DNA of 64,000 nt. Source: Bifidobacterium sp. WK012_4_13 (GTDB lineage: Bacteria; Actinomycetota; Actinomycetes; Actinomycetales; Bifidobacteriaceae). The notes below the pieces were generated by a model that worked only from the letters and a program-made list of their open reading frames with translations, ran no database searches and was not told where the DNA came from. The stretch lies in NCBI RefSeq assembly GCF_041080835.1, contig NZ_CP129683.1, positions 1,488,001 through 1,552,000 on the forward strand. Direction: 5' to 3'. Of this stretch, positions 9,939-21,209 are shown one piece after another (position 1 is the first letter of the stretch; each line of letters begins with the position of its first letter). The position numbers were made by a program, and so were the translations under genes.

Positions 9939-10011
9939 GGGGCTATGGCGCAGCTGGTAGCGCATCTGCTTTGCAAGCAGAGGGTCGGGAGTTCGAATCT
10001 CCCTAGCTCCA
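9939..10011 (+). tRNA. tRNA-Ala(TGC)
   Basis: 73 nt. Acceptor GGGGCTA pairs with TAGCTCC (10004-10010, one G-U), discriminator A. Anticodon stem TCTGC/GCAGA with loop TTTGCAA; anticodon TGC at 9972-9974. No CCA is encoded. Its 3' end is the integration site of the adjoining element and remains intact after insertion. Confidence 0.97.
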
Positions 10012-10012
10012 C
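10003..10012 (+). other. attL-like core in the tRNA-Ala 3' end
   Basis: CTAGCTCCAC spanning the acceptor 3' strand of tRNA-Ala. The same ten bases recur at 21210-21219, after the last cargo gene. The integrase gene starts 181 bp downstream. The core is short compared with usual tRNA attachment repeats. Confidence 0.65.
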
Positions 10013-10192
10013 GGACAGGGTTTTCGGGGTTATCTCGGAAGCCCTTTTTTATGAGGTTTTCCAGTGTTTTCAACGGATTCACGACTGTTTTTCTCAATTA
10101 TTCTGCGTTGCATAATGACTCTTATTAGGCCGGGATACCGTAGACTTAGGTTACATTTTAGGTTATGTATCCGGCCGGAGAGGTCGGCTACC

Positions 10193-11503
10193 ATGCCAAG
10201 GAGGAAAACCTTGCGCAGCGCTTTCGGATCAATCATTCAGAGGAAGAATCGGCAGGGATATGTCATATCCCTCGAAGCTCGTTACCCAAATCCGCTTGAC
10301 CCGAGCAAGCGAGTCATCAAATCCTTCCCTCTGGGTGCTAAAGCAGTGGCGCAACACTGGCTCGACGAAGAGAAGAAACTCGTCGATGCACACATGGCAG
10401 GCACGGAAACATGGACACCGCCAAAAGTTCGTGAAGCGAAAAAGACAAAGGCAAAGATACTGTTCCGTGACTACTCAGAACAGTTTCTCGACACTTACCG
10501 TACCTCTGACGGTTCTAAGCTCACCGAGGCGTCGGCACGAAAAAAGCGTGAGGCAATTGACCATCTCAACGATTACTTCGGTGACATGATGGTTTCCGAA
10601 ATCAAGCAGAAGAATGTGGAAGACTGGCTGGACGGCGATTACGTCGACGGGGTTCATGCACTCCGACGTGCCTATCAAGTGCTCAAAGCCATTGCCCAGA
10701 AAGCCCTGGCTTCTAACGAAGAAGAACCAGCTTTGCTCGACTCCGATCCATGCCAACGGCCGAACCCGAAACTGCCCAAATCCAGACAATCAATAATTCC
10801 GCCAGCCACACAGGAAGAACTGGGACTGATCTACAACGCTATGCCCGATTATTCAAGAATCGCTATCTACCTGGGAGCCGTCTTCGGCCTGCGGATCAGC
10901 GAGGTATGCGCATTGCAAGTATGCGATATCGACTTCGCCCATAAACTATTGCACGTACGTCACGCACTGACCAGAGGGGATGGGGACACTGGAACACTCT
11001 CCTTTAAAGGCACCAAGACAGAGAGCAGTAACGAGGACCTACCGATTCCCGACAGTTTCACGCCCCTCATCAAGGAGCACATCAAAGCTCATTGCGAATC
11101 ATCGAAGACTGCGATGCTCATTCCCGCGAAACACTCCAATATCATGAGTCCGAACACGCTGCGCGCACAGTTCGATGAAGCGAAATTAGCAGCAAACCGT
11201 CCCGATTTGCACTTCCACACTCTGAGAGCAACCGCGATCACCACCGCCGCACAGGCAGGAGGCACCCCGAAGGAAGTCCAAGAATACGGACGCCATGCAT
11301 CCGCGAAAATTTCACTGGCTCTCTACCAACGCGCCACTCGACAAGGTGAACGCCAACTTGCCAACAAGGTCTTCGCCACACTGGTCAAACCAGAACGCAC
11401 CCGAGATCTCATCGAAGCAGAATACAAGGAGACACTTAAACAGATTCAAGAATTACAGGATAAGGTCAAGAACCTTGAAACCGAACTAAAAGCAATGGAA
11501 TGA
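10193..11503 (+). CDS. Tyrosine-family site-specific integrase
   Basis: 436-aa recombinase that would catalyse integration at tRNA-Ala. An N-terminal AP2-like arm-binding region is followed by a SAM-like core-binding domain and the catalytic domain. Catalytic residues visible in order: Arg in FGLRISEVCAL, Lys in SFKGTKTES, HxxR in HFHTLRATAI, and the Tyr nucleophile in ISLALYQRAT. The C terminus is a Glu/Lys-rich predicted coiled coil. The ATG at 10193 was chosen because GGAGAGG lies upstream and the preceding in-frame codons run back into the att region without protein-like character. The gene reads away from the tRNA, the usual layout for tRNA-integrated elements. Confidence 0.92.
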   Translation: MPRRKTLRSAFGSIIQRKNRQGYVISLEARYPNPLDPSKRVIKSFPLGAKAVAQHWLDEEKKLVDAHMAGTETWTPPKVREAKKTKAKILFRDYSEQFLDTYRTSDGSKLTEASARKKREAIDHLNDYFGDMMVSEIKQKNVEDWLDGDYVDGVHALRRAYQVLKAIAQKALASNEEEPALLDSDPCQRPNPKLPKSRQSIIPPATQEELGLIYNAMPDYSRIAIYLGAVFGLRISEVCALQVCDIDFAHKLLHVRHALTRGDGDTGTLSFKGTKTESSNEDLPIPDSFTPLIKEHIKAHCESSKTAMLIPAKHSNIMSPNTLRAQFDEAKLAANRPDLHFHTLRATAITTAAQAGGTPKEVQEYGRHASAKISLALYQRATRQGERQLANKVFATLVKPERTRDLIEAEYKETLKQIQELQDKVKNLETELKAME

Positions 11504-13592: not shown

Positions 13593-14864
13593 TTACTGGC
13601 GGCTTCCGCTGACGCTCACGCCGCCTCGGATTGCTCCGATTATCTGTTCATCGTTGATGTTCGCGACTTGGAACAGTCGAGCGATGACTGCCTGACCAGC
13701 GATGATCATTCTGCCCGGCTTACCCGGTGGAACCACATGCTTATCGTCGGGATGAGGCTCATCGTCTCGCAGATTGCCGAGAGCCATCCGAGTCATCTCC
13801 GGAGTCGTCGTGTATCCCGATATCTTCGATGGGATCACATCGCGCAACGCGGTTGGGATGGCCTGTGAATCAACCTTCTGCGTGGCTAGAATCGTGAACA
13901 TACCGGCGCTGCGCTGCAACTTGATTAACCGTGTCAACAAGGCGGTGATCTCCTCAACGACGGGACGCTCGTCACGCGTTACCGCACTCAGATACTCCTG
14001 AAACTCATCGACGATCAGCACTTCCAAAGGAGGCTGACTATCGACTGGTTGATCTTGATAGTCTCCGGGGAGGCTACGCATTCGTTCCTGCCGTAATCGT
14101 TCACGCTCACGAAGCTGCTCAAGGAAGATTGGTTTATCATCACCGATCACCGAAATTCCGGCATTCTTGAAGACATCGAACTTTGAGTCGTTCTTCCCAT
14201 TTGCAATGCTCACAGCAACATCAGAAAGTGCCAGCTCAGCCGCGATTCTCTTCACGAGAACCGTCTTCCCGGCATTCGGCGCGCCACTGATCAACGCCCC
14301 GCTATAACCCAAAGTATTCAAATATACATCCGAACCTTTGATGTCCCATCCGAGATAGACTTGGCCACCGGCTGTGTCGTAAGGGCGCAACTCGAGCGAA
14401 TTCTCGTCAGGGGAATTCTCCAACGGATCGCGAAGGTACACGTTGACTATGGCCGTCAATGCACCTTGCTTCTCAATCACGATGTCGTATGCACTGAATT
14501 CGAGGATGAGATTCTCGCGTTGCTCCAGTAGCCTATCGACTGTGGCAACCTTCGGTAGGCCATGAAAACGAAAACGGTATCCATATGACATGCGATGCTT
14601 AAGACCAGCATGAGGGAAGCACGTCTTGTATCGTATTGAACCATCTGGCTTCTGAACCCGTTTGTCTACGGTTAACCCGCAACCTCCTGATATTCCGCGG
14701 AAACGTATGCCTAGCATCATCGAGGGAGCCAATCCCATTACAAACAACAGAACAACAGCAACCCACAGCTGGGGATAGAAGCATTGCCAGGCGATGAGAG
14801 TGGCCACCACCATCAAACTGATGATGGTGACCAGATACCAGTGAGACCGAAGGATGTTCCTCAT
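13593..14864 (-). CDS. FtsK/SpoIIIE-type conjugative DNA translocase (TraB/TraSA-like)
   Basis: 423-aa membrane-anchored ATPase. Two hydrophobic helices near residues 10-52, then a cytoplasmic domain with Walker A GAPNAGKT (194-201), Walker B EVLIVDEFQEY (281-291) and FtsK-like TILATQKVDSQAIP. AICEs use a single protein of this kind as a hexameric pump moving double-stranded DNA between mycelia or cells; that role is family knowledge, while activity in this host is inference. It is cotranslated with the upstream 111-aa gene (4-bp ATGA overlap) and precedes the rep/xis pair. Confidence 0.88.
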   Translation of the reverse strand: MRNILRSHWYLVTIISLMVVATLIAWQCFYPQLWVAVVLLFVMGLAPSMMLGIRFRGISGGCGLTVDKRVQKPDGSIRYKTCFPHAGLKHRMSYGYRFRFHGLPKVATVDRLLEQRENLILEFSAYDIVIEKQGALTAIVNVYLRDPLENSPDENSLELRPYDTAGGQVYLGWDIKGSDVYLNTLGYSGALISGAPNAGKTVLVKRIAAELALSDVAVSIANGKNDSKFDVFKNAGISVIGDDKPIFLEQLRERERLRQERMRSLPGDYQDQPVDSQPPLEVLIVDEFQEYLSAVTRDERPVVEEITALLTRLIKLQRSAGMFTILATQKVDSQAIPTALRDVIPSKISGYTTTPEMTRMALGNLRDDEPHPDDKHVVPPGKPGRMIIAGQAVIARLFQVANINDEQIIGAIRGGVSVSGSRQ

Positions 14865-15331: not shown

Positions 15332-16807
15332 ATGGTTCATACGTTCGACAAGAGGGTTGCCGAGAGAATTAACGTAATTCTGTCAGACAGAAATATGCCC
15401 ACGAAACAGGAACGATGTGGATACCTGAAAGCAAAAATCACCGACACATACCATTCCGACATGGGCATTAGTACCGCCTCTCTTCACAACATCCTTTCTG
15501 GCAGAACACCACTGACATTAGAACGTGCCATAGTAATTGCTAATTCGCTCAACATACCGATCGGCAATCTTTTAGCCGATCCGGAGCGTCCGAACTCCTC
15601 ATCGATAAAAAGCACGCAGGTTCCGGAAATGCGATATGAGAAAAATTACATGATCCTTCAGCAATGTCGATTTACCGCTGTCGAGTACGAGAATCTGGAT
15701 GTCGTAGATATCAAGAGGAAAATTCGCACTAACCTCAAGCATCTGTTGCTCAACAACCATGAGGTTTGGGCCAATAACGATTATTCAACCGCGAAATCAT
15801 CGACATCTGCTGCGGGCACTATGCACGCAGGTTTTAAAGTACAGAAACCAATTAAAAGGAAAACAAAATGTCTAATTACCAGTGAACGTTTCTTCTCATA
15901 TATCACGACCAGCTACTATCACGATTCAATGAGCTTCCGCCCACAAACTCTGTACAACATTGCCGAAGGAACCCGTTCATTGCAACTACGTGAGGCACTT
16001 GTCGTTATACATGTTTTTGACTGCAACATTGATTTCAAACGAGGTGCGATATTCAATAGTCGGACACGATATACAAAACGTGAAATCCAAAGCATCTTGC
16101 GAGTACTTTCTGTAGCCTGCGACGAAATCGAAATCATCAATCAAAAAATCAAAGACTTCCAGATAAGTCAAACATTAAAGCGTCGAGAAAAACGCATCAA
16201 TCTGGACTTTACTTACACCGATGTAATTCACCAAAAATATCCACAATTACGACGCTTCTCATCCAATGAAGCCGCGTCTCTCGCTCTCATTATGCTAGAT
16301 AAAAAACTTGATGCTCCTGAATGGTCGCCGAACTTATTCGCTGAGATGGACCGATTAATAGATTTACAGAACGATAGAGCCAATGATCATCAACTCCTTT
16401 CGCCATTATTCGGATACCATGAGAACTTCCCCGAATGCACCAACTACTCGAGACGAGGAAAGGGTGGATTCTCTCAACAAATGCGATGTCCTCTTTGCAC
16501 TTTGGTAAATGGGGCAATTCACGAAATAGAACAACTGAGCAAAGACGACGTGCACGCAATCACCAAAATGATCCGAGGACAATTCCAAATCATATACAGC
16601 AAACTCTTCTGGGACAATACTCCGGAATATTTGACCCGCAACGACAGCATCGACCACGAAGCGATTCGACAAACCCTTATACAGGATCAAAAGCTATTTT
16701 GTAAACTTGCTGACTGTTTTAAAGACACGAAATGTATATTAGGCGAAGCCCTCTCAACCGAATTCCCTCAACTTAATAAACTGTTATACGGTCGTCTTAG
16801 TAGATAA
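15332..16807 (+). CDS. Large regulator with two Cro/CI-like HTH units and a Cys cluster
   Basis: 491-aa protein without a family I recognise. Residues about 45-85 (ISTASLHNILSGRTPLTLERAIVIANSLNIPIGN) form an XRE-type HTH. About residues 193-230 (MSFRPQTLYNIAEGTRSLQLREALVVIHVFDCNI) align with it position by position, indicating an internal duplication. A later segment carries PECTNYS and RCPLC with flanking His, a possible zinc site. The gene is A/T rich and is the only plus-strand gene among the cargo, facing the TIR gene convergently. It may regulate the transfer operon upstream of it (divergent start, 135-bp spacer) or the defence genes. Confidence 0.7.
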   Translation: MVHTFDKRVAERINVILSDRNMPTKQERCGYLKAKITDTYHSDMGISTASLHNILSGRTPLTLERAIVIANSLNIPIGNLLADPERPNSSSIKSTQVPEMRYEKNYMILQQCRFTAVEYENLDVVDIKRKIRTNLKHLLLNNHEVWANNDYSTAKSSTSAAGTMHAGFKVQKPIKRKTKCLITSERFFSYITTSYYHDSMSFRPQTLYNIAEGTRSLQLREALVVIHVFDCNIDFKRGAIFNSRTRYTKREIQSILRVLSVACDEIEIINQKIKDFQISQTLKRREKRINLDFTYTDVIHQKYPQLRRFSSNEAASLALIMLDKKLDAPEWSPNLFAEMDRLIDLQNDRANDHQLLSPLFGYHENFPECTNYSRRGKGGFSQQMRCPLCTLVNGAIHEIEQLSKDDVHAITKMIRGQFQIIYSKLFWDNTPEYLTRNDSIDHEAIRQTLIQDQKLFCKLADCFKDTKCILGEALSTEFPQLNKLLYGRLSR

Positions 16808-16859: not shown

Positions 16860-17897
16860 TTAAAAATCGACTGCCCATGGGTCCGCATCATCGGATACAT
16901 CGGACGTAGATTCAACAGGTAGTAAACTCTCAAGACCACGGCTCTTGGCTACTTCTTTGGCGAGATCTCGGTTTGTTTCAAACCCAGGTTGTTTGAGTGC
17001 GAGCTTAAATGCGAGTTCCTTGTATTCTCCATTTTCTCCTCCGACACCGCCGCTTGCATTGTATACCTGATCATTATCTCTGATTGCAGCAAGTATTGAT
17101 GCCACTTCATGAGAATCAAGCCCAGTCGCCGAATAAAGCTGTTTCCAAACAAGATCAGTCCGATGATAGTTCTGCGAGAGCTTTAGTGCCTCGACCATTG
17201 ACGCATAAAAACCGTTTGTTAACTCGGGTTTTGTACTTAGCCACCTGATGATTTCGTCGCCAATTTTCTCGGCAGTCATGTCAGCTCGTACGGGGAAAGC
17301 CTGCTTTTTCCCAAATGGACCATAAGGATCTTCATCATGAAACTTGAGCGCATAACAAGGAACCTCGCGGCCCAGCAGCCACCCCACTTCTTGATCACAC
17401 CACTTACTTTCATTGAAATGTGGAGACAAAAAAGCCACACCAGCATCGCAATCATGGAGAGCTTTCTCAATTTCCTTAAGCCATTCGTGGTCAGGCACAA
17501 TCGACTCATGCGCAACGAATAACATTATGCCCCAGCTTTTTAAGTAAGAACTTACTTGGCCAACCAATGCCTTCTGCGAAGTGAGATGCGATGCGAACAA
17601 AAAAAGCGGTCGAACACCCTGTTGCCGATTCATTTGAATAGTAGTTTCAAACAACTGACTTACTGCCGGAACCAATTCTTCGACAATATCGCGTGGAAGG
17701 TCACGAATTATGTTGAGAACTGCGCTGAATCGCTCCTCATTTGACCTCTCATATCCGTCTTCGTCCTCCCATTGCCCCTGCATAACTTCATCTGTATGCA
17801 GCTCATGGAAAAGTAGGTTCACCTCATCGAAGTCGCATTCAGCCAATGTCCGTGCGACACTTCGCATTTTCGACAACTTCTCGATATCAATAGACAT
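16860..17897 (-). CDS. TIR-domain protein (defence-associated)
   Basis: 345-aa protein with a central TIR domain, residues about 96-200: RPLFLFASHLTSQKALVGQVSSYL, then HEWLKEIEKALHDCDAGVAFLSPHFNESKWCDQEVGWLLGR. The Glu of WCDQE (Glu170) sits where catalytic NADase TIRs have their essential Glu. The N-terminal 90 residues are helical and acidic; the C-terminal 130 residues look like a small helical domain (SATGLDSHEVASILAAIRDN, ELAFKLALKQPG). ATG 17897 was chosen because AAAGGA lies 4 bases before it; a TTG at 17942 has no site. It has its own upstream spacer and is separated by a perfect hairpin from the TIR/SLOG operon. Confidence 0.85.
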   Translation of the reverse strand: MSIDIEKLSKMRSVARTLAECDFDEVNLLFHELHTDEVMQGQWEDEDGYERSNEERFSAVLNIIRDLPRDIVEELVPAVSQLFETTIQMNRQQGVRPLFLFASHLTSQKALVGQVSSYLKSWGIMLFVAHESIVPDHEWLKEIEKALHDCDAGVAFLSPHFNESKWCDQEVGWLLGREVPCYALKFHDEDPYGPFGKKQAFPVRADMTAEKIGDEIIRWLSTKPELTNGFYASMVEALKLSQNYHRTDLVWKQLYSATGLDSHEVASILAAIRDNDQVYNASGGVGGENGEYKELAFKLALKQPGFETNRDLAKEVAKSRGLESLLPVESTSDVSDDADPWAVDF

Positions 17898-18093
17898 ATC
17901 ATCCTTTACTGTGGCCAAACCATGAAAATCAAATTTCCTCAATGGGACAATATCTTACATTTCTGTAATCGCTATGTTGGAATTACTCTCTCTTCAACCT
18001 ATCAAATGAACGACTTTTGTTTTTCTCACTGAATAGCTATTCGATTTACAATTTCATCATTCGTTCAATTCATACGGCTAAAGGTTCTCGAAT

Positions 18094-18133
18094 TTAGGGG
18101 TGTACTCCATCTCCAGATGGAGTACACCCCTAA
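18094..18133. terminator. Perfect 19-bp inverted repeat, probable terminator of TIR/SLOG operon
   Basis: Arms 18094-18112 and 18115-18133 are exact complements (19 bp; begins TTAGGGGTGTACTCC) with two bases between. It lies between the end of the TIR/SLOG operon and the promoter of the next TIR gene. Neither flank has a T run, so it may block transcription from both sides through stem strength, or be a regulatory or protein-binding structure. Confidence 0.55.
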
Positions 18134-18168
18134 GTCTCAGCACAGTTATTATTCGCAAATAACAAAAG

Positions 18169-18360
18169 TCAAGCGATAGGCCACTTAGTGACGAACACGT
18201 AGAGCAATGAATCCGCACTTTTTACCCTCAAAGAAGGCCGGACTTTCAAGTAGCGGATAACGGAGTACAGACAATTCGCCCAAATAGATGAAAGATGCTT
18301 TTCTGCCGATACCGGAAGGACGATTCCTGAATAAAGGAAACCTTCATCATGAATAGTCAC
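18169..18360 (-). CDS. Possible small protein at the end of the TIR/SLOG operon
   Basis: 63-aa frame starting with GTG 13 bases after the SLOG gene stop and ending before the large hairpin, so it would be the last gene of the operon. AAAGG lies about 12 bases upstream of the start, rather far. The sequence (SSIWANCLYSVIRYLKVRPS near the middle) is moderately hydrophobic and basic but shows no motif I know. It could be a genuine small component or chance. Confidence 0.3.
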   Translation of the reverse strand: MTIHDEGFLYSGIVLPVSAEKHLSSIWANCLYSVIRYLKVRPSLRVKSADSLLYVFVTKWPIA

Positions 18361-18373
18361 ATTCTCGGTGCCT

Positions 18374-19030
18374 TTACAGTCTTTGTACTAAATCATTAAC
18401 AATATGCCGTGCCAGGGTAGAATAAATGTCGCTCGCTGTTAGTTCTTGACGTAGTTTCGTCGGCGATTTATCAACTAACTTTTTTGCTTCCCCCCCAGGA
18501 CATCCGAAAACATATACTGGAGCATCTGGCTGTAGCGTGTGAAACAGGTTGTATTCATCGGATATACCGCTCATACCGCCGATAAAAACTGCTGCAACAG
18601 GTCTTGATTCTGTTAGCATCTGATGACGCATGTGTTCAAGACTCTTGGGCGCCAATGCTGGGTTTGCAGGTTCGTTTTCAATTCGATCTGTCCAGATAAT
18701 CGTACCTATCCCATCATCCTCATATCTCTTTGTTGCAACCGGTAAAATTGATTTGAAAGTGGCCGATTGATAAACAACAACCCGTTTGTCATTTTCTTTC
18801 AATTGCTCTGCAGCAACGTAAAGAAGAAGAGGCGCAATAGTAGGATGTGTTGCGGTAACTAATTTGCCACCATTCCGCAAAACAGCTCGCGCTATGGCAA
18901 CTACAGCATCGGTTATTCCGAAAGGATCGAAGCTTCCCTCCCATCGGTGTGGATCGGGAATGCTAGCGGAAATGAAAATGGTCGAACCTAGCATTTGATG
19001 ATTTTGAATGTCTGCAACTCTGTTCACCAT
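18374..19030 (-). CDS. SLOG-domain protein (nucleotide sensor)
   Basis: 218-aa single-domain protein with a Rossmann-like SLOG/LOG fold: strand TIFISASIP at residues 17-25, helix AVVAIARAVLRNGGKLVT, and VFIGGMSGISDEYNLF near 150-165, which parallels the PGGxGTxxE nucleotide-binding loop of LOG proteins. SLOG domains bind NAD-derived nucleotides, for example the sensor of Thoeris ThsA; the TIR-associated SLOG families were predicted to act in such conflict systems. No effector domain is fused here. ATG 19030 follows GGAGGCAA and overlaps the upstream TIR gene by 7 bp, so the two are translationally coupled. Confidence 0.75.
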   Translation of the reverse strand: MVNRVADIQNHQMLGSTIFISASIPDPHRWEGSFDPFGITDAVVAIARAVLRNGGKLVTATHPTIAPLLLYVAAEQLKENDKRVVVYQSATFKSILPVATKRYEDDGIGTIIWTDRIENEPANPALAPKSLEHMRHQMLTESRPVAAVFIGGMSGISDEYNLFHTLQPDAPVYVFGCPGGEAKKLVDKSPTKLRQELTASDIYSTLARHIVNDLVQRL

Positions 19031-20196
19031 TTGCCTCCAATCGCGTTTTCCGAAACGACTTCAAGTCGACGCTCTCCGGCGACCCATTCAAGATGCTTTC
19101 TTTTCAACTCACTTAAATGCCTTGCAGTATGAATGAGTTGAGCTGATGCAGAAGCGTCGATCTGTTCCCGGGTCTCATCTAAATGTTGCAGATCTCCACA
19201 AGTCGGCAATCGTGGTGTCACGCAAACAATTGAATGTTTTCCGTTGCTTCCAGTGATGTCAAGCGCCCAATCCTTAAGAGGTACACAACTAGCTCCCTGA
19301 TCTTTGGCCGAATCTTGGACTCCTCGTAAAAGAATGTTTCGTCGCCGTACAATCGCACGTGCGTGAGCAGCCTCTACCTCATAGGTGATTTTCTCAATTG
19401 CAGATCGAGTGAAGACATCGTATCCATGACTGTCCCTTATGATGTCAGTGGGTTCTAATACGAGCCGGGGAAGACCAGCACTTCCAGGAACTTGCTCAGG
19501 CTTTCCCGGCCACTGGACAATTAGTATCCCCATTACATGAGCGAGAGCGTAATCAACTTCGTCATAGACCCATTCCGATGCGTGCGCATCAGGCGTCTCA
19601 AGCAATAGCAGAAATGCAAAATCTTCAAGCACGTCTGCAATTTTCTCTTGAACCTCTTCTCCGGGTTCTATCGAGAAACGATCAATGAAGGGCTTGAACT
19701 TACGATGTGTAAGCTGATCGTGCAGTTGCTCAGCAGCAGCAAGACCATCAGTCCTCCTGTGACTAATAAATACACGCCGATCACGCTCCTCAATATTGAG
19801 CTGCTCGAGCACCATACGGGCAAGTTGCCTAGCTGGATTGCTACCAGACCACTCAAACCCATTGAATTCAGAAACCTCCTCGGGAATTTGATTCGTGAAC
19901 AAAGCAACATTATCAACAACAGGTACAACCAATAATCCGTTGGCCAATGCACTTTGAAGTTCTGCCTTCATCGAAGGATCGTTTTTTGTCGTCGTCCCGC
20001 CAAAAACCAATACAAGAGATGGCGCTCCGGTAGTTACGAGACCCTCCCCAACGCTAACAGTTACTGATTTGTGAATACCGAGTTCTGTGAGTTCATCAGC
20101 AATTGCCTTTTGAAACTGATCGAGCCAATTCCGACGATCCACCTGTAGGACCTGCACTTGATACACGATAGACACAATAAAACTCCCGTTATTCAT
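19024..20196 (-). CDS. Two-part TIR-domain protein, translationally coupled to SLOG gene
   Basis: 390 aa. Residues 1-135 form an alpha/beta region (SLVLVFGGTTTKND, LQSALANGLLVVPVVDN, IPEEVSEFNGFEW) that looks like a degenerate TIR- or SLOG-like domain. Residues 138-235 are a clear TIR: RRVFISHRRTDGLAAAEQLHDQL, FIDRFSIEPGEEVQEKI, and SEWVYDEVDYAL with the catalytic-position Glu213. The C-terminal 150 residues are unassigned. The ATG at 20196 starts 20 bp after the upstream gene's stop but lacks a good ribosome binding site; an in-frame ATG at 20289 overlapping the upstream gene is an alternative. Likely an NAD-consuming signal producer or effector. Confidence 0.8.
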   Translation of the reverse strand: MNNGSFIVSIVYQVQVLQVDRRNWLDQFQKAIADELTELGIHKSVTVSVGEGLVTTGAPSLVLVFGGTTTKNDPSMKAELQSALANGLLVVPVVDNVALFTNQIPEEVSEFNGFEWSGSNPARQLARMVLEQLNIEERDRRVFISHRRTDGLAAAEQLHDQLTHRKFKPFIDRFSIEPGEEVQEKIADVLEDFAFLLLLETPDAHASEWVYDEVDYALAHVMGILIVQWPGKPEQVPGSAGLPRLVLEPTDIIRDSHGYDVFTRSAIEKITYEVEAAHARAIVRRRNILLRGVQDSAKDQGASCVPLKDWALDITGSNGKHSIVCVTPRLPTCGDLQHLDETREQIDASASAQLIHTARHLSELKRKHLEWVAGERRLEVVSENAIGGKW

Positions 20197-20215
20197 ACGA
20201 ATGCATACATCAAGG

Positions 20216-20812
20216 TCACGAACAGCTAAGATTCCTCTGTTGTAATGCACGACTGTTATCAACAAAACGGGCCCTTGCCGTTCGATCATTGAATGCAGTT
20301 TCGATATCAGATCGCACAGCTGAAAGGGAAGAAGGATAGTTGAAGAAGTGAGCATACGAACGAACGTGGTCATTCGTATCCCAATTGTCTTTAATTCGGG
20401 CAGGAAGATGTGCCGAGTTATGCAAATATGGAAGAGGATAGACAAGCAGCCCGCTTCTTTTATTGTTAATGTCGTTCCTCAAAGAGGATGATATTTCCCA
20501 GTCGACAAACTTCCGAGTCCATGTGCAGCTACCTAAGAGAACGATGGTCACGGTTGAGTCTGTGAGATATTTTTCACGAATTCGACGTTTAATGTAGTCG
20601 TCGTCAGTACTGTCGACAAAATCGTCTTCAACCGTCACACCAACTGAACGGGCGATGAATTCCGACCCGAATGACTCAATGAATTGTCCAACTTCGGACA
20701 TATCACCAACATGATATGAAATGAAACATTTGTGCCGTGTTGGGTCACTGTTTCTGGATGCCGCCCGTTCCGCAATCCGTTGTAACTGGAACATCTCTCC
20801 TGTAGCTGACAT
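20216..20812 (-). CDS. ThsB-like TIR protein (PF08937 type)
   Basis: 198 aa. Residues 27-125 match the ThsB/MTH538 TIR-like fold: KCFISYHVGDMSEVGQFI, then DDDYIKRRIREKYLTDSTVTIVLLGSCTWTRKFVDWEISSSLR; Glu106 is in the catalytic position. In Thoeris, ThsB senses phage and makes a cyclic or histidine-linked ADP-ribose signal read by a SLOG-containing protein. Here the gene is first in an operon with a second TIR gene and a SLOG gene. GGGGAGAGAA directly precedes the ATG. The assignment to this TIR subtype is by motif reading only. Confidence 0.8.
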   Translation of the reverse strand: MSATGEMFQLQRIAERAASRNSDPTRHKCFISYHVGDMSEVGQFIESFGSEFIARSVGVTVEDDFVDSTDDDYIKRRIREKYLTDSTVTIVLLGSCTWTRKFVDWEISSSLRNDINNKRSGLLVYPLPYLHNSAHLPARIKDNWDTNDHVRSYAHFFNYPSSLSAVRSDIETAFNDRTARARFVDNSRALQQRNLSCS

Positions 20813-21209
20813 TTCTCTCCCCTGTTAGATACCTCTGGACAAGAATTCTAGCAGTGGTTACCCTCAGAATGTTTGCTATTACGAGTATTTACTCATATTC
20901 AAGTCGGCATAATCACAAAGCAGTGAAGCCTGCTGATACTCCCAATCGTATTGAAACTATCGTCTCTTTCTGTGAACAAACCTGTCGCCGCATATCCCAT
21001 GAGGGAAAGGCCAAGAAGCGCGCAATTTCATCTTGCTACTATCGTTTGCGTTCTGTGGGTTCACAAGATCACGTACATATATGATTTATTCAAGTACAGA
21101 AGTCGACAGACTAATGCTATCATAGGTTATGAAATAGGTTACACAGCAGTCCTTACATAACTCAGACAACTGAAATAAAAGCAAAGCTGAACCACCTACA
21201 GGAACCCGG
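20813..21209. other. Right-end spacer of the integrated element
   Basis: About 400 A/T-rich bases between the TIR operon start and the right att repeat. Short plus-strand frames here have no ribosome binding site or protein-like composition. The region should contain the TIR operon promoter (minus strand) and arm sites for the integrase; I could not define either. Confidence 0.5.

Follow-up and report, generated by a model that had tools for sequence, protein, structure and literature searches.

The window analyzed here is a 64,000-nucleotide stretch of the Bifidobacterium sp. WK012_4_13 genome (contig NZ_CP129683.1, positions 1,488,001 to 1,552,000; genome size 2.47 Mb), and its minus strand carries, at 18374-20812, a three-gene operon that is very probably a Thoeris type III defence system. 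Both core proteins exceed the cut-offs of the NCBIfam models for this type, with ThcA scoring 164.6 bits against NF058525 (cut-off 110) and ThcB4 scoring 320.5 bits against NF058526 (cut-off 220; profile positions 1-373 of 375 covered), and the adjacent thcB4 and thcA genes are accompanied by a further TIR gene, an arrangement that we derived as a criterion from the loci described below and not from a publication. A first-pass annotation made from the sequence alone had proposed a Thoeris-like TIR/SLOG cassette at this position, and the two NCBIfam matches, the conserved pairing of the core genes, and the small TIR genes found close to them all bear this out. The same annotation took the cassette to differ from the Thoeris layouts described so far. 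This is not supported, since NCBIfam release 20 (June 2026) already models ThcA and ThcB4 under the name Thoeris type III, so that the arrangement is a known one. The type is thereby named in a public protein-family library, and the parts of the literature covered by our search contained no description of type III Thoeris and no account of how it works.

The genes of the operon and the features directly downstream of it are as follows:

20216-20812, minus strand: small ThsB-like TIR protein, 198 amino acids (aa), first gene of the operon, matching PF08937 (ThsB_TIR, E 6e-18)
19024-20175, minus strand: ThcB4, 383 aa from GTG 20175 or 390 aa from ATG 20196, matching NF058526
18374-19030, minus strand: ThcA, a 218 aa stand-alone SLOG (cluster 3) protein, matching NF058525 and PF18180
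18094-18133: perfect inverted repeat in the gap separating ThcA from the third TIR gene, with 19-bp arms and a 2-nt loop
16860-17897, minus strand: third TIR protein, 345 aa from ATG 17897 or 360 aa from TTG 17942, matching PF13676

All four proteins are encoded by uninterrupted open reading frames (ORFs) where the first-pass annotation had placed them, and the joining of a TIR, a second TIR, and a SLOG gene into one operon was likewise upheld. Read 5' to 3', the minus-strand run is small TIR, ThcB4, ThcA, with the thcB4 and thcA reading frames overlapping by 7 nt and a plausible ribosome-binding site ahead of each gene (GGGGAG before ATG 20812 of the small TIR, CGGGAG before GTG 20175 of ThcB4, and GGAGG before the ATG of ThcA). 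The defence cassette is real and intact-looking, spanning about 2.4 kb with one small TIR and no accessory effector seen. For ThcB4 the more probable start codon is GTG 20175 (383 aa); a start at TTG 20445 was rejected, as it would create a 230-base overlap with the small TIR gene. The third TIR has its more probable start at ATG 17897. Each of the three TIR proteins has a glutamate at the catalytic position, as the first-pass annotation had read them: Glu106 in the motif FVDWE of the small TIR, Glu213 in WVYDE of ThcB4 (numbered from ATG 20196), and Glu170 in WCDQE of the third TIR (numbered from ATG 17897).

The pairing of ThcB4 with ThcA is conserved well beyond this genome. When 84,980 species genomes were searched with an alignment of three ThcA sequences, 163 relatives came up. 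The 80 best of these were fetched and, together with the window and locus L005, make up a set of 82 loci from several phyla, judged by record titles, some of them near-identical; the counts of 81 and 82 given throughout take in the window and these near-identical loci. The relatives were found via two ThcA peptide patterns, so that conservation inside the patterns is inflated and distant ThcA proteins are missed. In 81 of the 82 loci, the window among them, the gene immediately upstream of ThcA is ThcB4. The exception is L082, where a contig end cuts the locus and an overlapping ORF resembles the ThcB4 C-terminus by eye. A candidate ThcA fusion in that same locus was rejected, as by eye its 418-aa frame merely extends upstream of an ordinary ThcA. 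Across 189 genomes of the window's family and 396 of its phylum, full-length matches to the ThcB4 and ThcA models coincide, falling in the source genome (G000) and Bifidobacterium asteroides ESL0200 (G134) in the family set and in the source genome and G553 in the phylum set. The G553 ThcB4, at 205.5 bits, is below the cut-off of 220, and the other ThcB4-model matches listed in these genomes cover the profile partially, mostly over the TIR domain. ThcA was found in two of the 189 family genomes, both in the window's own genus. The tree distances of ThcA and ThcB4 correlate strongly over 53 loci (Mantel r 0.93, best of 999 permutations 0.24), a correlation to which shared ancestry adds; the two trees have 24 of 50 splits in common and agree in a mixed fashion in detail.

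Going by record titles, most of the 80 fetched relatives come from Pseudomonadota or Bacteroidota. The Escherichia coli version of the cassette was found in 4 of 5426 genomes, where the annotation uses no Thoeris names, and looking through E. coli genomes for distant DNA matches to a Proteus locus gave none. ThcA relatives occur in 29 of 72,556 plasmid records and in none of 50,697 phage records.

Pfam assigns ThcA to SLOG cluster 3 (PF18180, E 1e-32) and its AlphaFold2 model has a mean predicted local distance difference test (pLDDT) score of 93.6. The first-pass annotation had described a stand-alone SLOG protein with a GGMSGISDE loop and without a fused SIR2 or membrane effector, and the Pfam scan of the window's ThcA agrees that no effector is fused to the SLOG. 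SLOG cluster 3 is matched by 59 of 59 ThcA proteins and the Pfam STALD model, which represents the sensor domain of ThsA, by 21 of the 59. The motif GGMxGxxxE is present in all 82 ThcA proteins, though only its later G and E count as independent evidence because VFIGGM belonged to one of the search patterns. The best PDB profile match of ThcA is 7uxt (E 0.071; listed as "USG protein"), which we take to be ThsA. The STALD pocket of ThsA, as given in one study, comprises Ser288, Phe357, Arg371, and Glu403 (PMC7272460), and a second study has 3' cyclic ADP-ribose coordinated by R371, E403, and K388 (PMC10022894). From the alignments, ThcA residues S21, F92, R135, and E159, conserved in 81, 79, 82, and 82 of the 82 proteins respectively, are the likely counterparts of these four pocket residues, the Arg and Glu being aligned with 7uxt and the Ser and Phe being matched by reading of the alignment.

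ThcB4 is a larger, multidomain protein. The frame 19024-20445 matches the Pfam families TIR_2 (E 5e-16) and ThsB_TIR (E 2e-6), and the AlphaFold2 model (mean pLDDT 89.6) predicts an N-terminal alpha/beta domain, a TIR domain, a long helix, and a C-terminal alpha/beta domain. In a profile search the closest solved relatives of the TIR domain are the SARM1 TIRs (E 3.6e-8), and a Foldseek search with the model also matched the fold to the SARM1 TIR, the sensible matches among the first 50 listed being TIR domains. Long Foldseek alignments to receptors, isomerases, and GTPases were disregarded, as their root-mean-square deviations were about 16-29. S207, W209, and E213 do not vary in any of the 81 ThcB4 proteins. 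The N- and C-terminal domains had no convincing solved relative among the first 50 Foldseek matches listed, and profile comparison of these end domains with TIR, with SLOG, and with each other gave nothing convincing, the highest probability being the 25% reached by the N-terminal domain when compared with ThcA. The ThsB model of the PADLOC 2023 set spans ThcB4 over almost its full length (E 9e-44).

The small TIR is the most variable of the three operon proteins. The window's copy matches no NCBIfam family, and its matches in the PDB are weak (E 0.024), namely 9b7d, which is listed as ThsB1, and 6lhy, a ThsB listed as a DUF1863 protein. Duplicate removal reduced the 96 small TIRs collected from the loci to 89, with L042:8660-9121 then left out of the alignment (A3). 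All 89 small TIRs, the window's copy counted, have the glutamate of position 106, PF08937 is matched by 78 of the 89 scanned, and the ThcB4 model is matched weakly by 18 of them. Single-linkage clustering at 60% identity gave 48 clusters for the 96 small TIRs, 22 for 81 ThcB4, and 19 for 82 ThcA, and mean column identity is 11% for the small TIRs versus 38% for ThcB4 and 38% for ThcA, although the diversity of the small TIRs is partly inflated since one locus may hold several kinds. Diversity greater than that of their partners is as expected of phage sensors, and the window's small TIR is probably a phage sensor and signal maker.

A small TIR also keeps company with ThcA. In 43 of 46 non-redundant loci one lies within 4 kb of ThcA on either strand, and in 40 of the 46 it is on the same strand; the set of 46 left out L001-L004, ten apparent duplicates picked out by eye, and loci with less than 7.5 kb on either side. 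Counted in steps of 1.5 kb away from ThcA, the numbers of small TIRs are 68, 20, 2, 3, and 3, and as the profile was built from the same loci that it counted, this drop with distance serves as the control. One locus in G553 (L003/L005; L005:7708-10478) has a small ThsB-like TIR gene on each side of ThcB4-ThcA.

The third TIR protein stands apart from this cassette. Its frame (16860-17942) matches TIR_2 (PF13676, E 9e-12), and it follows ThcA at a distance of 431 bp (to the TTG) or 476 bp (to the ATG), past the inverted repeat at 18094-18133; because of this gap and this repeat, it is probably not a member of the operon. The repeat is a possible transcription boundary, though it has no T-run and is outside the set of terminator-like sites found in the window. 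Elsewhere in this genome, a paralogue with 55% identity (G000:C1:2243796-2244809, L090:7749-8813) adjoins an AbiEi/AbiEii-like pair, and further relatives are found on plasmids of Paenarthrobacter, Pseudarthrobacter, Rhodococcus, and Klebsiella. The loci examined were those of the paralogue and of four of the six plasmid records, with two plasmid hits and a hit in G549 left out, and the ThcA profile matched nothing in these five stretches. The third TIR is also absent beside the B. asteroides ThcA cassette. A relative on the opposite strand adjoins the ThcA operon at L070:9349-10434 (E 7e-18), a truncated relative (E 4e-6), again on the opposite strand, adjoins a similar operon at L063:9350-9967, and the other fetched ThcA loci contain no relative apart from ThcB4 itself. 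With five other loci of its family free of ThcA, we rejected the third TIR as a component of the cassette, with L070 and L063 as a caveat; it is probably an independent orphan neighbour sharing the same island, and it is a poor candidate for the effector.

The first-pass annotation had placed the effector in one of the TIR proteins, the two-part TIR, or an extra small ORF, where it may indeed lie. The operons of the relatives narrow the search for that effector. No other gene of at least 130 aa is present in 32 of 82 operon chains, 22 of which include a small TIR, and so an effector should lie among small TIR, ThcB4, and ThcA. Among these, ThcB4 is favoured as the executioner because ThcA has no second domain and ThcB4 contains a complete TIR of the SARM1 type, making ThcB4 the best effector candidate. 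With moderate confidence, we propose that the small TIR signals, ThcA reads the signal, and the TIR domain of ThcB4 executes. The small, diverse ThsB-like TIR would sense infection and convert nicotinamide adenine dinucleotide (NAD+) to a signal of the ADP-ribose type, which ThcA would bind in a pocket of the ThsA (STALD) kind. ThcA and ThcB4, the products of neighbouring genes with overlapping frames here, would together form the effector, in which ligand-bound ThcA would free the SARM1-like TIR of ThcB4, leading to destruction of NAD+ and the arrest of the infected cell. Such an effector would be a ThsA split over two genes, with a TIR replacing SIR2. The domains, the conserved catalytic and probable pocket residues, the strict pairing, and the structure of the operon are observed; the signal, its binding, the complex, the depletion of NAD+, and phage defence itself are all proposed steps. 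More tentatively, the whole may amount to a "TIR in, TIR out" relay from a signal-making TIR through a free SLOG reader to a SARM1-like TIR executioner, in which the N- and C-terminal domains of ThcB4 would be docking parts. If this relay is true, the SIR2-SLOG effector of Thoeris is represented here by two linked genes with another NADase fold. The small three-gene cassette is well suited to finding the killer protein, the signal, and the way in which a separate SLOG sensor passes that signal on.

Several observations weigh against assigning ThcB4 the role of executioner and ThcA that of reader. TIR domains can produce signals or deplete NAD+, and because they do both, the likeness to SARM1 leaves the role of ThcB4 unsettled. 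The sequence link between ThcA and ThsA is weak, resting on the E value of 0.071 given above, and two single ThcA sequences used as queries retrieved no ThsA match. Three of the 46 non-redundant loci (L018, L021, and L028) have no small TIR within 4 kb; L021 and L028 bear a Tle1-like lipase gene, and the opposite strand of L021 further holds a TIR-like ORF of 320 aa. Some of the 32 chains are short through contig ends, and genes on the opposite strand were left uncounted. Additional genes, for the most part unannotated, are present in the remaining 50 of 82 chains; among the annotated ones, a SLOG-patatin (L045, L053, and L056 of the 82 loci, as well as the plasmid loci L088 and L089) and a Tle1-like lipase (six of 82 loci: L012, L021-L023, L028, and L029) are plausible as separate effectors. 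In Staphylococcus aureus Thoeris, one report describes ThsB1 as a phage sensor whose putative catalytic residues are dispensable, and takes the ThsB1 of a second system as a signal maker (PMC12578639); either role would fit ThcB4 on the sensing side.

This last comparison leads to the main rival explanation, which we regard as rather unlikely: ThcB4 and the small TIR would sense and signal, like ThsB1 and ThsB2 of Staphylococcus, and ThcA would be the effector, for example a LOG-type glycosidase destroying nucleotides once the signal is bound. The name ThcA parallels ThsA, from which we infer that its namers took it as the effector, and R135 and E159, kept in every ThcA, are of a type that we take to be catalytic in LOG enzymes. 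Two TIRs also cooperate in S. aureus Thoeris (PMC12578639). However, R135 and E159 do not prove catalysis because the sensor domain of ThsA uses an Arg and a Glu of this sort to bind its ligand (PMC10022894, PMC7272460), and a LOG enzyme appeared neither among the six PDB profile matches of ThcA (to E 10) nor among the Pfam matches of 59 ThcA proteins (E 0.01).

It is improbable that ThcB4-ThcA is a signalling module for exchangeable separate effectors, of which the window's copy would be a minimal version with its effector elsewhere or missing. The lipase genes just mentioned, including the SLOG-patatins of E. coli and Pantoea plasmid loci, the further genes in so many chains, and the type I restriction genes flanking ThcB4-ThcA in several Bacteroidota would all fit such a module, but the two lipase kinds together account for just 9 of 82 loci, and nothing else of at least 130 aa is seen in the 32 chains. 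We give little credence to the idea that the third TIR is an executioner turned on by ThcA in this host: it adjoins ThcA on the same strand, and relatives adjoin the operon on the opposite strand in L070 and L063, but these are the only fetched loci with a relative, and the paralogue, the four plasmid relatives, and the B. asteroides cassette speak against it in the ways described above. Just as slim is the chance that ThcA is a brake, protecting the cell from spontaneous TIR activity by binding or degrading the signal. Viral SLOG proteins have been proposed to degrade signals of the ADP-ribose type (PMC9503650), but a brake would not require pairing with ThcB4 in nearly every locus.

The preferred split effector can be set beside the Thoeris systems already described. 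Like other type III loci (NF058525, NF058526), the window has adjacent ThcA and ThcB4 genes with a small TIR gene upstream; its single small TIR contrasts with as many as four same-strand small TIRs within 4 kb at other loci. Thoeris type I (a SIR2-SLOG ThsA with ThsB) shares with it a ThsB-like TIR and a SLOG with likely STALD pocket residues, but in the window the SLOG is a protein of its own, with a TIR protein as its partner. Thoeris type IV (TIR-caspase) is defined by a caspase-like effector. The ten proteins scanned of the presumed mobile element contain no SIR2 family, no macro domain, and no caspase-like peptidase family, the effectors of types I, II, and IV, respectively, that of type II also having a transmembrane part. 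Type VI Thoeris uses a 2' cyclic ADP-ribose signal (PMC13232231). The S. aureus system with ThsB1 and ThsB2 likewise has two TIR proteins per operon, but its effector is a ThsA with a STALD domain (PMC12578639), and ThcB4 carries its own C-terminal domain. The E. coli plasmid locus NZ_CP034659 (L088) resembles the window in having small TIRs, ThcB4, and ThcA in an operon-like run; it differs in that its TIR genes other than ThcB4 number four and in carrying a SLOG-patatin phospholipase, whose annotation as "CBASS cGAMP-activated phospholipase" probably stems from the patatin domain.

The accessory genes of the relatives, which may be extra effectors or partner defences, were annotated through one representative per cluster for ten clusters, with 100 single genes left out. 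The patatin fusions carry a SLOG of cluster 2 within the ThcB4-ThcA operon, as assigned by Pfam on L045 and L088 and by cluster or profile on L053, L056, and L089. In L021-L023, L028, and L029, a gene of the Tle1-like family (type VI secretion system phospholipases) lies directly upstream of ThcB4, and no same-strand small TIR is found within 4 kb. Six loci (L020, L038, L041, L042, L048, and L073) have hsdM/hsdS-like type I restriction genes upstream of ThcB4, ThcA, and the small TIRs, and in five of these an hsdR-like gene lies downstream of the cassette. ThcB4-ThcA is near genes for a 5-hydroxymethyldeoxyuridine (5-hmdU) DNA kinase, Nmad2, or thymidylate-synthase-like proteins, all pointing to DNA base modification, in L009 (by Pfam) and in L046 and L054 (by cluster).

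The first-pass annotation had also placed the cassette on a mobile element. The features of the window bearing on this are as follows:

9939-10012, plus strand: tRNA-Ala(TGC), found by ARAGORN, probable integration site
10064-11503, plus strand: tyrosine integrase (PF00589, E 2e-18), directly downstream of the tRNA-Ala gene
13593-14864, minus strand: FtsK-like ATPase, with AAA above and FtsK_SpoIIIE just below the cut-off, and a weak TraB-like match

They support the proposal in part; a search for the right end of the element and its far direct (attachment) repeat found neither. DNA identity with the genomes G131 and G130 ends at 10014 and with B. asteroides at 10012, at the tRNA-Ala gene, while identity with G149 continues to 10076. 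The tyrosine integrase probably belongs to the element as its integrase. The cassette of B. asteroides ESL0200 is found beside the same tRNA-Ala gene in the same relative orientation, with DNA 74-75% identical over 18388-20836. In the close relative G131, a different integrase-like gene comes after this tRNA-Ala gene, with a VirD4/TraG-like gene farther along. The tRNA-Ala site looks like a hotspot. The G131 element (L099:4790-16846, genes named by eye) is different from that of the window. Between the FtsK-like ATPase and the third TIR gene of the window, a plus-strand gene at 15332-16807, running towards the third TIR, encodes a 491-aa protein with a weak helix-turn-helix match.

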